The notes under the pieces were generated by a model. That model saw nothing but the letters and a program-made list of their open reading frames with translations, searched no databases and was not told the origin of the DNA. Shown piece by piece: positions 20,038 through 55,287 of a stretch of 64,000 bases of DNA (the stretch's first letter is position 1; every line of letters begins with the position of its first letter). The stretch comes from Thermostichus lividus PCC 6715 (GTDB lineage: Bacteria > Cyanobacteriota > Cyanobacteriia > Thermosynechococcales > Thermosynechococcaceae): assembly GCF_002754935.1 (NCBI RefSeq), contig NZ_CP018092.1:434001-498000 (forward strand), given 5' to 3'. The translations under genes were made by a program, and so were the position numbers.

Positions 20038-20810
20038 CGCTTCGCTGAGGGCTAGCCAGTCTCTCAGGCTCAAGGCTTCAGCACGGCTCTCGGGAGGAAG
20101 TCCCAGTTCCGCTAAGACCTGACGAACAGCACTCGGATCAACCAGTGATTTTAAGGCATTGGCTAGCATTTTGCGGCGGGTGGCAAACCCCTGCTTCAGC
20201 AGCCGCTCTAACCACTGGGGGAAGTCACCTGAGGTGGCGTTGGGTGAGGCCGTAAACAGATCACCATCGATTCCACTTTTGGGGGTGGCTGAAAGGCGCG
20301 CGGGGGAACGGCACAGACAGGTTCACAGGTGGCCAAGAACTGGCTACGTACTGAAAGGGCACCGTAGGCTTTGCTGCCCGGTTTGGCCATGAGGCGATCG
20401 CCAATTTCCTTTTGCACGAGGAGGATGAGGCGCTCAAAGGCGGGGGTGCGAGGCTGGCTCAGGGTTCCCAGTAAGTGTTCTAGGAGCAGGCCTGTGATGT
20501 TGTAGGGAATATTGGCCACTACTTTGTTACACCCCAAAGCCGCCAGATCAGTGCGCAGGATGTCCCCTTCCATCAGCACGAAGCGATCGCTGCGGATCTG
20601 CCGCTTCAGGCTTGCACATAAATCGCGATCCAGTTCCACCGCAACCACCGCAACCCCAGCCGCCAACAGGGGACGAGTGAGTGCACCGCGCCCTGGGCCT
20701 ACTTCAAGGACGCGATCGCCCGGTGTTAAGTGCGCCGCAGCAATCATCTGTGCCAACACCGCTTCACTGCGTAGCCAGTGCTGGCCAAACCGTTTGCGAG
20801 GTCGATTCAC
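20011..20810 (-). CDS. rsmA: 16S rRNA (adenine1518/1519-N6) dimethyltransferase, frame broken at a G/C run
   Basis: RsmA (KsgA) dimethylates two adjacent adenines near the 3' end of 16S rRNA late in small-subunit assembly. The N-terminal frame has FGQHWLRSEAVL, VLEVGPGRGALT and NIPYNIT motifs. As written it stops early at 20208 after VTSPSG. With one more base in the five-base run at 20217-20221 it continues PQWLERLLKQGFATRRKML and on to QAQQNE with a stop at 20011. This gives 266 residues, the normal length. The lesion sits in a homopolymer and looks like a sequencing error. The start abuts the end of eno. Confidence 0.88.
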
Positions 20811-22523
<1,713 letters not shown>

Positions 22524-26464: not shown

Positions 26465-28741
26465 TCAGGCCGGGCTGGGTGTATCGCTGCCGAGCCGCAC
26501 AAAACTGCGTCGGGGGCGTTTTTTCCAAGGAATATCCAGCATACCCGTTTGGGAGCGGCCACTACTGATTTTATGCTTCACCTTCACAGGACGGTAGTCT
26601 GTGAGAATCCGCAGACTATTGAGTTCTGCTAATAGGGTTGCCCCATTGCTAATGAGCACCGCCAGCACTGGGTGTAGGCTCAAAAATACCCCTGCTAAGA
26701 CCACACTGACGTTGGGAATAACCACCAAGGCAATGTTTTGGTTAATAATCTCCATGACTTCTTTACTGAGGGCGATCGCCTGAATAATCCCTTCAAGATT
26801 ATTATTCATCAGTAAAATATCTGCCGTTTGCCGTGCGGCATCACTGCCCTCCGGCAGGGAAATGGAAATGTCGGCGTAGGCCATCGCCGCTGTGTCGTTA
26901 AACCCTTCCCCAACGTAGGCCACGACGTTTTCGCCATTATTTTTAAACTTTTTGAGAATCTCCACCTTATCTTCTGGCAGGGTATTGGTGTAAATTTGGC
27001 CAAGACGAAAGCCAGCGGCATAACCAACGGCGTTGGCAACTTCGTGGTGATCCCCTGTCACCATATAGCATTCAATGCCGCGATTTTGCAGATCGGCAAT
27101 GACACTGGCCGTTTCTGGGCGCACCGGATTGCTGTAAAAAAGGACAGCCACCAGTTCACCATTACAGGCAACGCAAGCAAGGGAGCGATTCCAGAGCACG
27201 CCCTCGTGGGAGCGAAGTTCTTCAAGGTCGGCGTCAATATTGTTGTCAGTCATAAACTGGTGTGTGCCCACCAGAATCCGTTGCCCCTCTACCAACCCCA
27301 TAGCACCGCGCCCGGGTTCATAGCTCCAATCTGAGTACTCGCCCGGCGAGATCCCCCGCGCTTGGGCGTACTCCATCACCGCTAAGGCAAAGGGATGGTT
27401 GATGTGCTGCTCAATGGTGCTGAGCCAGTACAGGAGGGTGTCTTCGCTAAGGTGTTCTTTGAGAATTTCCACCCCAGCAATGGTGCCCTTCACTTCCGTG
27501 AGAGTGCCGGTTTTATCAAAGACGATAATATTTACCCGCGAGAGTAGCTCAAGGGCACGACCATTGCGCACATACACGCCTACTTGGGGAGCATGGGTCA
27601 GGGCGGCCAAAATGGCTGTCGGAATGGTAATGCCAATCCCAGCGCCAAAGTCAAGCTGTAACGGGGCGATCGCCCGGTGAGCATCCAAGGTCAGCCCATA
27701 CACAAGGGCAGAGACCCCCATAGCCGGTAAGATCGCTTGGTTAGAAATTTCTTCGGCGTAATTCTCAATGCGTGTATCGAGTTGGGGGGCTTGTTTGGCC
27801 AGTTGGAGCGTTTTCCCCACTTGGGTATCATTGCCAACCGCCTTAGCAGCAATACAGAGTTGCCCCCGCACCACCAAAGACGAGGCCAGCACCGCCTGCC
27901 CCGGTTCACAGGTCAGTAAATCCGACTCACCCGTCAAAAACTGCCGCTGAATCACCGCTGACCCCCAGAGCACCTCGCCATCGACAGGTACTGCCGAGCC
28001 AGCCGCCACAATGACGTGATCCCCCACGTGTAACTCACGAATTGAGACGTTACGACGACTACCATCCCGCTCAATCCAGTAGGTGCGCTGCTGATCAAGG
28101 GGATCAAACACTTGGGCTTCACCCACCTGTGCTGTCATGTCCCGCAGGCATCCCCCCATTTGGCTCATGAACACCGCTAGCACTGGAGCCATATACTCCC
28201 CTTGCAAGGTATGCAAAATCGTCCACAGGGATTCCAGTTGGGTGACGTTGAGATGGCGATGCTCAAGGCTTTCGAGGGCTTCCTGAAATGTGGGCAGAGC
28301 AATGATGGTAATGATTGTCGCGACAATTACTGGATAGAACGGAGTTTGCAGTGGCAATAGGGCAACAATGGCTAAGGCAGCCACAGGCAAGGCCATCTTT
28401 TGCAAAAAGTAGGCGGTGTTCCATGGGGAATACACCTGCTTGTCAATCGGCAGAATGGTGGGGCTGGGTAAGTCAGGGTCGGCGGCGCGACGGATCAGGG
28501 AACTAAACAGGGCAAGGTGACTCTCGCCATCGCTGTTATATTCGATCACGATACAGGCGGCAGCAGCATTGACGCGAATTTGCTGAACAACCTCCTGCTG
28601 CACCAACAGGTGCTGAAGTTGGCGCAGGTAGTGCTCGTCATAGCGCAGACGCGGAACCCGCAGCCGCAACCGCCCAGGAAGGTGATGAACCACTTCGTAG
28701 GCAATGGTTTGGGGGTCAGGATGAGTAGTGGTCATGGTCAT
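26465..28741 (-). CDS. P1B-like P-type ATPase lacking the CPC metal motif
   Basis: This 758-residue P-type ATPase has an N-terminal HMA2-like domain (HHLPGRLRLRVPRL, without CxxC), TGES in the actuator domain (270-273), the phosphorylation site DKTGTLT starting at Asp409, an HP pair in INHPFA and the hinge motif as GEGFND instead of GDGxND. In helix 6, where heavy-metal pumps carry CPC before xxLGLATPTAI, this protein reads FGAGIGITIPTAI: the metal-binding cysteines are gone. The transported substrate is therefore unclear; a non-metal or hard-cation substrate, or a regulatory role, are possible. Its start overlaps the end of the bestrophin gene by 26 bases, so the two form an operon. Confidence 0.85.
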   Translation of the reverse strand: MTMTTTHPDPQTIAYEVVHHLPGRLRLRVPRLRYDEHYLRQLQHLLVQQEVVQQIRVNAAAACIVIEYNSDGESHLALFSSLIRRAADPDLPSPTILPIDKQVYSPWNTAYFLQKMALPVAALAIVALLPLQTPFYPVIVATIITIIALPTFQEALESLEHRHLNVTQLESLWTILHTLQGEYMAPVLAVFMSQMGGCLRDMTAQVGEAQVFDPLDQQRTYWIERDGSRRNVSIRELHVGDHVIVAAGSAVPVDGEVLWGSAVIQRQFLTGESDLLTCEPGQAVLASSLVVRGQLCIAAKAVGNDTQVGKTLQLAKQAPQLDTRIENYAEEISNQAILPAMGVSALVYGLTLDAHRAIAPLQLDFGAGIGITIPTAILAALTHAPQVGVYVRNGRALELLSRVNIIVFDKTGTLTEVKGTIAGVEILKEHLSEDTLLYWLSTIEQHINHPFALAVMEYAQARGISPGEYSDWSYEPGRGAMGLVEGQRILVGTHQFMTDNNIDADLEELRSHEGVLWNRSLACVACNGELVAVLFYSNPVRPETASVIADLQNRGIECYMVTGDHHEVANAVGYAAGFRLGQIYTNTLPEDKVEILKKFKNNGENVVAYVGEGFNDTAAMAYADISISLPEGSDAARQTADILLMNNNLEGIIQAIALSKEVMEIINQNIALVVIPNVSVVLAGVFLSLHPVLAVLISNGATLLAELNSLRILTDYRPVKVKHKISSGRSQTGMLDIPWKKRPRRSFVRLGSDTPSPA

Positions 28742-29729
28742 GGGGAATTACCACATCGTCAAGGGAGGATTGGTGGGGTGCTGGCGTACTAATGAGGTCA
28801 TGAATGTTTTGCTGCATCGTAATGCAGATTGCATCTAATGGTAAATCATTTAAGTCGCGGCCAAAGGGGTTTTCAATTTCAATGCCAATTTCCTCAACGC
28901 CAAAGAGGGTAAAGGCAATCAGACCCACCATTGGCCCTGTTAACCACCCAAGATCATCCACCAGTTGGAAGGGTAACAGCAGACAGTACAGCAGTAATAA
29001 CTGCTTGAGGTGAATGGCGTAGGCCAAGGGGATCGGTGTTTTCAGGATGCGCTCACAACTGCCTAGGGCATCTACAAGCAGCACGAGTAACTCATCCATA
29101 TAGGTGAGTTGATACAGAGACAACTGACCACAGCAGTGTTGTTGATGCAGATACGATTCTATCCATAGGGCAATGCGCAGCGGCACATTTTGTACCGATT
29201 GCAGTTCCTGATATTCGTGAGGAGCAAGGAATGGCTGAAGCTCTACAAAGGTTTGGTGGCGCAGGTGCTGCTTGGTGGCGATCGCAAAGGCGCCCACTAA
29301 GTTCACGGCTTTGATTTTGCCTTGGCGATCGGCGGCTGTTTGCTCATCAATGGCCGTCCACATCAAGCGGGTTAAGTTGCGGGAGGCGTTGATGATGTTC
29401 CCCCACTGTCGCCGTCCTTCCCAAAACCGCTCGTAGGCGGTGTTGGTACGAAACACAAGGAGTAACCCGAGCACAATAGAGGGGATTAAGCTGCCCAGAA
29501 CTGGCCAATGCAGATTGACAATGTAAATGTCTGCCGCTGAAATCAACACCCCAAAGGCAACACAAAAAAGGACTTCTGGCAGAATAGCAGGAATGACGGA
29601 GCCGCGCAGCCGCAGCGCCAAGCGCAACCAATTTGGATCTAACAATAGCCGCTTAACGGCACTAGGACTGAATTGGCGCAGTTGGTGGTTGGGAGGCAAG
29701 TTCAAGCGTAAAAATGAGGTTCGAGGCAT
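28716..29729 (-). CDS. Bestrophin-family anion channel
   Basis: The 337-residue protein belongs to the bestrophin/UPF0187 family of pentameric chloride or bicarbonate channels. It has the early segment RLRGSVIPAILPEVL, the RTNTAYERFWEGRRQWG motif and the C-terminal FGVEEIGIEIENPFGRDLNDLPLD signature. Cyanobacterial and plastid relatives affect thylakoid ion balance and bicarbonate supply. The natural start is the ATG at 29729 (MPRTSF). The 442-bp mobile element begins two bases upstream, so the ribosome-binding site (AAGGAGGGGAG) is contributed by the element's end. A longer frame starts within the element at 29783. The ATPase gene follows with an overlap. Confidence 0.88.
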   Translation of the reverse strand: MPRTSFLRLNLPPNHQLRQFSPSAVKRLLLDPNWLRLALRLRGSVIPAILPEVLFCVAFGVLISAADIYIVNLHWPVLGSLIPSIVLGLLLVFRTNTAYERFWEGRRQWGNIINASRNLTRLMWTAIDEQTAADRQGKIKAVNLVGAFAIATKQHLRHQTFVELQPFLAPHEYQELQSVQNVPLRIALWIESYLHQQHCCGQLSLYQLTYMDELLVLLVDALGSCERILKTPIPLAYAIHLKQLLLLYCLLLPFQLVDDLGWLTGPMVGLIAFTLFGVEEIGIEIENPFGRDLNDLPLDAICITMQQNIHDLISTPAPHQSSLDDVVIPHDHDHYSS

Positions 29730-54871: not shown

Positions 54872-55287
54872 AACCCCTCCGCTTTAGCGAGGGGATACAG
54901 CCAACTCAGGGGGCTTTAGCCCTCTCTATGTGTTAAACTAGAGACGTGGAAAGTAGGCGTATCAACTACGCGAAGAAACATCCTAGTACGGAGAAATCCC
55001 GGCAAGTAAGTCACTACCGCTTTGGCGGCAAGCCTAAACCACTGCAAGCAATGGCAGGATGTTGAGCGTATCGAATTGGCTAGTGTTGAAAAGCGCGAAA
55101 CCACGAACCGAAACATAAACGTAGTCCCAATAGCAGAAATGCTTGAGGTGAGTAGGGGGTCTTTGACTGCCCCCACCCGCATTAAGTTGTGGGTGACAGC
55201 TCAAGGGAAAAGCGAAGCAACGCGGCTTCAGCCCGTTGCGTAGCATCCTTTGGGAATCCCCTCTCTTTCAAGGAGGGGAGAAGTCAA
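54846..55287 (+). mobile_element. 442-bp non-autonomous IS200/IS605-like element, copy B
   Basis: This is the inverted twin of 29732-30173, of identical length and with only a few substitutions, so one copy arose recently. It carries a CCCCTCCGC/GCGAGGGG hairpin at the left and GAGGGGAG(A)AGTCAA at the right. The left end lies inside the esterase gene and supplies its stop. The right end faces the convergent petD gene and leaves a small spacer. Confidence 0.85.

Follow-up and report, generated by a model that had tools for sequence, protein, structure and literature searches.

Within a 64,000-nucleotide stretch of the Thermostichus lividus PCC 6715 genome (hereafter the window), we identified a bestrophin gene that directly precedes the gene of a P1B-like P-type ATPase. 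The sequences show that the pump combines an intact catalytic machinery with a replaced metal site, that its pairing with the bestrophin is conserved and that it is under purifying selection. The reading that we tentatively favor is an active P1B-like exporter of a hard or borderline divalent cation, with the co-operonic bestrophin easing charge or ion balance. The host genome is complete, a single contig of 2.66 Mb, and the features discussed below are collected in Table 1.

Table 1. Features of the bestrophin-ATPase locus (positions in the window).
Feature	Position	Strand	Details
P1B-like P-type ATPase, window clade (GEGFND, LDFGAGIGIT)	26465..28741	-	758 aa; TIGR01525, trees, model, Foldseek
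M5/M6 stretch, conserved N669, N677, N699 (candidate ligands with D364)	26645..26737	-	alignment, model
Hinge GEGFND (residues 611-616)	26894..26911	-	motif and alignment
Phosphorylation motif DKTGTLT (residues 409-415)	27497..27517	-	motif and alignment
M4 motif LDFGAGIGITIP (residues 363-374): FGA for CPC, D364 invariant, G370 for Arg/Lys	27620..27655	-	
TGES of actuator domain (residues 270-273)	27923..27934	-	motif and alignment
HMA_2 domain (residues 15-70), GRLRLR motif, without CxxC	28532..28699	-	PF19991, 35.5 bits
Overlap of bestrophin stop and ATPase start	28716..28741	-	26 bases
Bestrophin_2 gene, predicted pore-neck I85, L89, F93	28716..29729	-	337 aa; ATG at 29729
High-copy repeat, transposon-like end, stops 2 bases upstream of bestrophin start codon	29732..30165	-	

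The pump keeps its catalytic motifs and lacks the soft-metal site

The ATPase scores 423.4 bits against TIGR01525, the P1B subfamily profile (cut-off, 346.25), and motifs and profiles identify the hallmarks of P-type pumps: DKTGT, TGE, a HAD hydrolase domain and the hinge Asp. DKTGTLT, TGES and HP are intact, as a preliminary description of this DNA had stated, and the catalytic residues E272, D409, H449, K592, N615 and D616 are retained in all 10 aligned orthologues (the window clade). That description had also singled out the hinge, which indeed reads GEGFND rather than GDGxND. GEG is not peculiar to bestrophin-linked pumps; three relatives without a bestrophin neighbor (L105:6689, L116 and L266) carry it too, so it predates the pairing.

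To compare membrane sites, we aligned 68 sequences from two families, the LDFxTGI family to which the pump belongs and a family of pumps with D(Y/F)SCA(L/I)(K/R) in M4 (hereafter DYSC pumps), each named after its M4 motif. The position aligned with CPC reads FGA, within LDFGAGIGITIPT, and none of the CPC, SPC, CPH or TPC metal motifs of P1B pumps occurs in M4. The Ser-Cys of the DYSC motif, as inferred from homologues, is found in 0 of 10 window-clade orthologues, all of which have Gly followed by Ala or Ser instead. At the N terminus, an HMA_2 domain (PF19991; cut-off, 30 bits) contains a single Cys and no CxxC, and its R24 and R26 are kept across both families, including all 10 orthologues. 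With FGA for CPC and no CxxC, the usual soft-metal binding site is missing, in agreement with the earlier description on all three points. A CVAC in the soluble part was considered as a soft-metal site elsewhere in the pump and rejected, as neither the orthologue in the sister genus (G211) nor the other aligned relatives conserve it.

The alignment revealed what may take the place of the cysteines. All 68 sequences of the two families have M4 Asp364; M5 Asn677 occurs in 67 of them and M6 Asn699 in 66. Four residues ahead of the M4 Pro, the 58 sequences outside the window clade all have Arg or Lys and the 10 within it all have Gly, a change that counts as one evolutionary event, not ten. An AlphaFold2 model (mean pLDDT 78, pTM 0.64) predicts eight membrane helices (residues 109-128, 136-160, 166-179, 184-212, 324-351, 354-387, 650-687 and 691-709) in the P1B layout with two extra N-terminal helices, and places a break in M4 at residues 363-364, beside Asp364. 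Foldseek searches with this model returned P1B pumps as the nearest solved folds.

The pump thus shares fold, catalytic motifs, the two extra N-terminal helices and an HMA-like domain with P1B pumps such as CopA and ZntA, and differs from them in having FGA for CPC, no CxxC, GEG for GDG and an Asp/Asn-based membrane site. Although its best family-model and fold matches are copper and zinc pumps, we consider it very improbable that it moves copper or zinc through an unusual site: M4 offers no Cys, HMA_2 offers no CxxC, and two CPC-bearing pumps are encoded in the same genome.

The bestrophin neighbor is conserved but not obligate

The preliminary description had called for a search for this ATPase subtype next to bestrophins. 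We surveyed 29 genomes of the order for orthologues and extended the search to 386 cyanobacterial genomes. Of the 11 genomes of the genus, 9 carry an orthologue, and so does one sister genus, G211 (n = 10; 67-100% identity); among the 386 genomes there was none beyond these two genera, the next matches being about 40% identical. A bestrophin directly precedes the pump in all ten, and no orthologous pump without a bestrophin was found in the 386 genomes. The pair sits in four contexts that have no other close neighbor in common: the window genome, G218, a set of seven genomes, and G211. Because all ten orthologues carry the same substitutions and the same neighbor, and pump dN/dS among them is 0.06-0.12, the substitutions are not chance.

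In the window, the 26-base overlap is as described, the bestrophin stop ending at 28716 and the ATPase beginning at 28741. Overlaps of 26, 20 and 14 bases occur in three lineages, and a 17-base gap takes their place in four examined genomes of the set of seven. Tight spacing is therefore conserved and overlap is not, and we discarded the overlap as a conserved signature. Co-transcription of the two genes is likely. Translational coupling, which had been claimed from the overlap, is plausible.

In two further members of the genus (G216 and G219) the bestrophin and the downstream recombinase gene persist, and just short remnants of the pump are left between the two. A single bestrophin is present in each genome of the genus, and the examined relatives outside the two genera have bestrophins without such a pump nearby. 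The losses in G216 and G219 indicate that the pump is dispensable and that the bestrophin does not exist solely to serve it. The pairing is thus real without being obligate. The joint function that had been suggested is weakened by the two deletions; it is possible, not required.

These observations bear on a rival reading to which we give roughly one chance in three: the pump was inserted once behind an old housekeeping bestrophin and uses its transcription, the two proteins having no joint task. Bestrophins stand alone in the examined related genomes and are present in 71 of 194 cyanobacterial genomes, and the two genomes that erased the pump retained the bestrophin, all as expected of mere operon neighbors. 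Against this, the pair has remained intact across at least four genomic contexts and down to 67% identity, with no orthologous pump found apart from a bestrophin. The same two deletions, together with the lost M4 Arg/Lys, the change from GDG to GEG and a catalytically dead paralogue in the same genomes, could mark a pump that is degenerating or has become a non-transporting sensor. This strikes us as most doubtful, since all catalytic residues are retained and dN/dS is about 0.1 or lower.

The dead paralogue lies outside the window and is the third HMA_2 paralogue of the genome (G000:C1:1676692-1678545, reverse strand; L275:4693-6546). It keeps the HMA_2 domain and an M4 reading FDFGSGVQLS; DKTGT has become IDGRSG or IDARAG, TGES and GDGxND are gone, and most of the nucleotide-binding part is missing. 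Orthologues occur in most of the genus, in G211 and G209 and, more distantly, in G205 (73-83% identity within the genus; 54%, 45% and, along part of its length, 39% in the three further genera), with dN/dS of 0.10-0.25.

The surroundings of the pair vary. No third conserved operon member emerged: a tyrosine recombinase gene follows the pump in most of the genus and a UPF0114 gene follows it in G211, neither of them universal. In most of the genus the recombinase gene (L089:5383-6531 and orthologues) overlaps the pump 3' end; the window genome has its homologue elsewhere (G000:C1:1872746-1873885). In G211 (L096), a crcB-like gene lies upstream of the pair and the UPF0114 gene directly downstream. 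A ksgA-like and an enolase gene (window 20208-22097) lie near this pump, and in several relatives such genes are found next to the paralogous one. The repeat upstream of the bestrophin is present in at least 40 copies in the genome, 97-100% identical, and probably supplies the ribosome-binding stretch AAGGAGGGGAG ahead of the bestrophin; from the look of its terminal hairpin it is IS200/IS605-like. A further copy lies at about window 55009-55287. Rfam returned no structured RNA above the gathering score between the genes or upstream, and we found no paper treating such a pump and a bestrophin together.

The pump belongs to a divergent clade within a broad family

The window clade falls within a cyanobacteria-rich family whose M4 reads LDFxTGIR and which includes one Deinococcus and one Chloroflexi member. 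The LDFxTGI family forms one clade (support 100/100) in a tree without an outgroup, in which the root is not placeable, and the branch leading to the window clade is long, 0.93-0.99 changes per site in both trees. The window pump is a direct member and shares the family's M4, M5 and M6 pattern; all 39 of the LDFxTGIR relatives have retained the M4 Arg/Lys and most of them GDG, whereas the window clade has neither. A paralogue of the same family, 39% identical, is encoded at G000:C1:616945-619074. Among the family members surveyed, none outside the window clade had a bestrophin next to it. The pump had been described as a kind of ATPase with no known substrate. It is not an isolated subtype: it has a wide family around it, in which gene neighbors suggest ferrous iron, manganese and calcium.

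In a quick tree with distant P-type pumps, the LDFxTGI family groups with the DYSC pumps (SH-aLRT 94), to which it is probably related. DYSC-type pumps are found in Desulfovibrionaceae, Clostridia, Methanobrevibacter and Rhodomicrobium. From these hosts and a multi-gene cluster in Hahella reminiscent of the six-gene fez operons, we infer that DYSC pumps correspond to P1B-6/FezB, which are represented here by motif homologues. FezB is the putative ferrous iron transporter of ferrosomes (PMC10979944, PMC12574912), and the fez genes of R. palustris are RPA2333-2338 (PMC12016538).

The likeness extends to GRxRxR, the invariant M4 Asp and the conserved M5 and M6 Asn, and other LDFxTGI branches lie near HMA_2 genes and FeoB. 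A ferrosome-type pump (FezB, P1B-6) that fills a membrane compartment with Fe2+ would account for the GRxRxR and Asp/Asn membrane pattern common to the DYSC pumps of Desulfovibrionaceae, Clostridia and Rhodomicrobium and for the grouping of the two families. We nevertheless regard it as improbable, because the window pump has no M4 Ser-Cys, adjoins none of the partner genes recognised in DYSC or DUF5132 clusters, with no fez-like neighbors in the window, and belongs to what is presumably an aerobic phototroph. It further differs from P1B-6/FezB pumps in having no Arg/Lys four before the M4 Pro and no partner cluster, and in its bestrophin neighbor.

Neighbors of relatives suggest a hard divalent cation

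The pump's own neighbors in the window clade are not metal genes; the hints come from its relatives. Many members of the LDFVTGIR clade have FeoB within about 8 kb, and members of the LDFATGIR clade adjoin HMA_2 and DUF5132 genes; we found no paper on DUF5132. The nearest GEG-type relatives, those of G205 and G405, share a cluster with a GDG-type pump, MntP and a gene of the Na/Ca-exchanger family; in G211 and G218, the paralogue too has MntP or a Na/Ca exchanger nearby. MntP is a putative manganese efflux protein. The G205 and G405 clusters (L105 and L277) also carry a sulfatase-modifying-factor-like protein, and the G205 cluster additionally has DUF5132 and a homologue of the pseudoenzyme.

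The FeoB, MntP and Na/Ca-exchanger neighbors suggest Fe2+, Mn2+ or Ca2+ as the substrate of the family. Our best guess, from these neighbors and the membrane residues, is that the window pump would likewise carry a hard divalent cation (Mn, Fe or Ca) and not Cu or Zn. The long branch and the loss of the M4 Arg/Lys leave room for its substrate to differ from that of its relatives.

The bestrophin neck lies between a sodium and a chloride channel

The bestrophin is a clear member of its family (PF25539, Bestrophin_2; 322.7 bits, cut-off 27), with dN/dS of 0.09-0.15 where computable. Its solved relatives are KpBest and VCCN1-type channels, and we placed its neck, I85, L89 and F93, by alignment with KpBest among 15 homologues. 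Klebsiella KpBest, with the neck I-I-F, is a Na+ channel that I66F shifts toward Cl- (PMC8496536), and VCCN1 from plants, whose neck reads P-L-F, is a channel for Cl- (PMC9076864). Since I-L-F falls between the two, polarity is not callable from the neck, and the earlier label of anion channel was an assumption. The protein shares family and predicted pore anatomy with KpBest, VCCN1 and Chlamydomonas BST1-3, and departs from them in its I-L-F neck and in sharing an operon with a pump of the P-type.

Bestrophin_2 is common in cyanobacteria, and its presence in 71 of 194 genomes contrasts with the statement that cyanobacteria lack bestrophin-like bicarbonate transporters (PMC10092803). The function of cyanobacterial bestrophins seems unstudied.

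Discussion

Taken as an active exporter, the pump would be made from the same operon as the bestrophin and, following P1B precedent, would carry ions out of the cytosol into the periplasm or thylakoid lumen. The site in the membrane would consist of Asp364 in M4 with Asn677 and Asn699 in M5 and M6; with such a site in place of cysteines, Mn2+, Fe2+ or Ca2+ would be expected rather than Cu+ or Zn2+. The bestrophin, as its adjacency suggests, may act as a passive ion path that relieves the pumped charge, or may tune the ion balance of the same membrane. A more specific version, which we put forward as a long shot, is that the M4 Arg/Lys serves as a counter-ion in the relatives and that its loss made the window pump dependent on the bestrophin or on counter-transport, in moving a photosynthesis-related hard cation alongside the paralogue and the dead ATPase.

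P1B-like pumps without cysteine ligands are hardly characterized, and the window branch offers a compact test of how a hard cation is chosen, of the role of the M4 Arg/Lys, and of whether an ATP-driven pump can be served by a bestrophin. Should the cation be manganese or calcium, the pump could bear on the supply of the photosystem II metal cluster.
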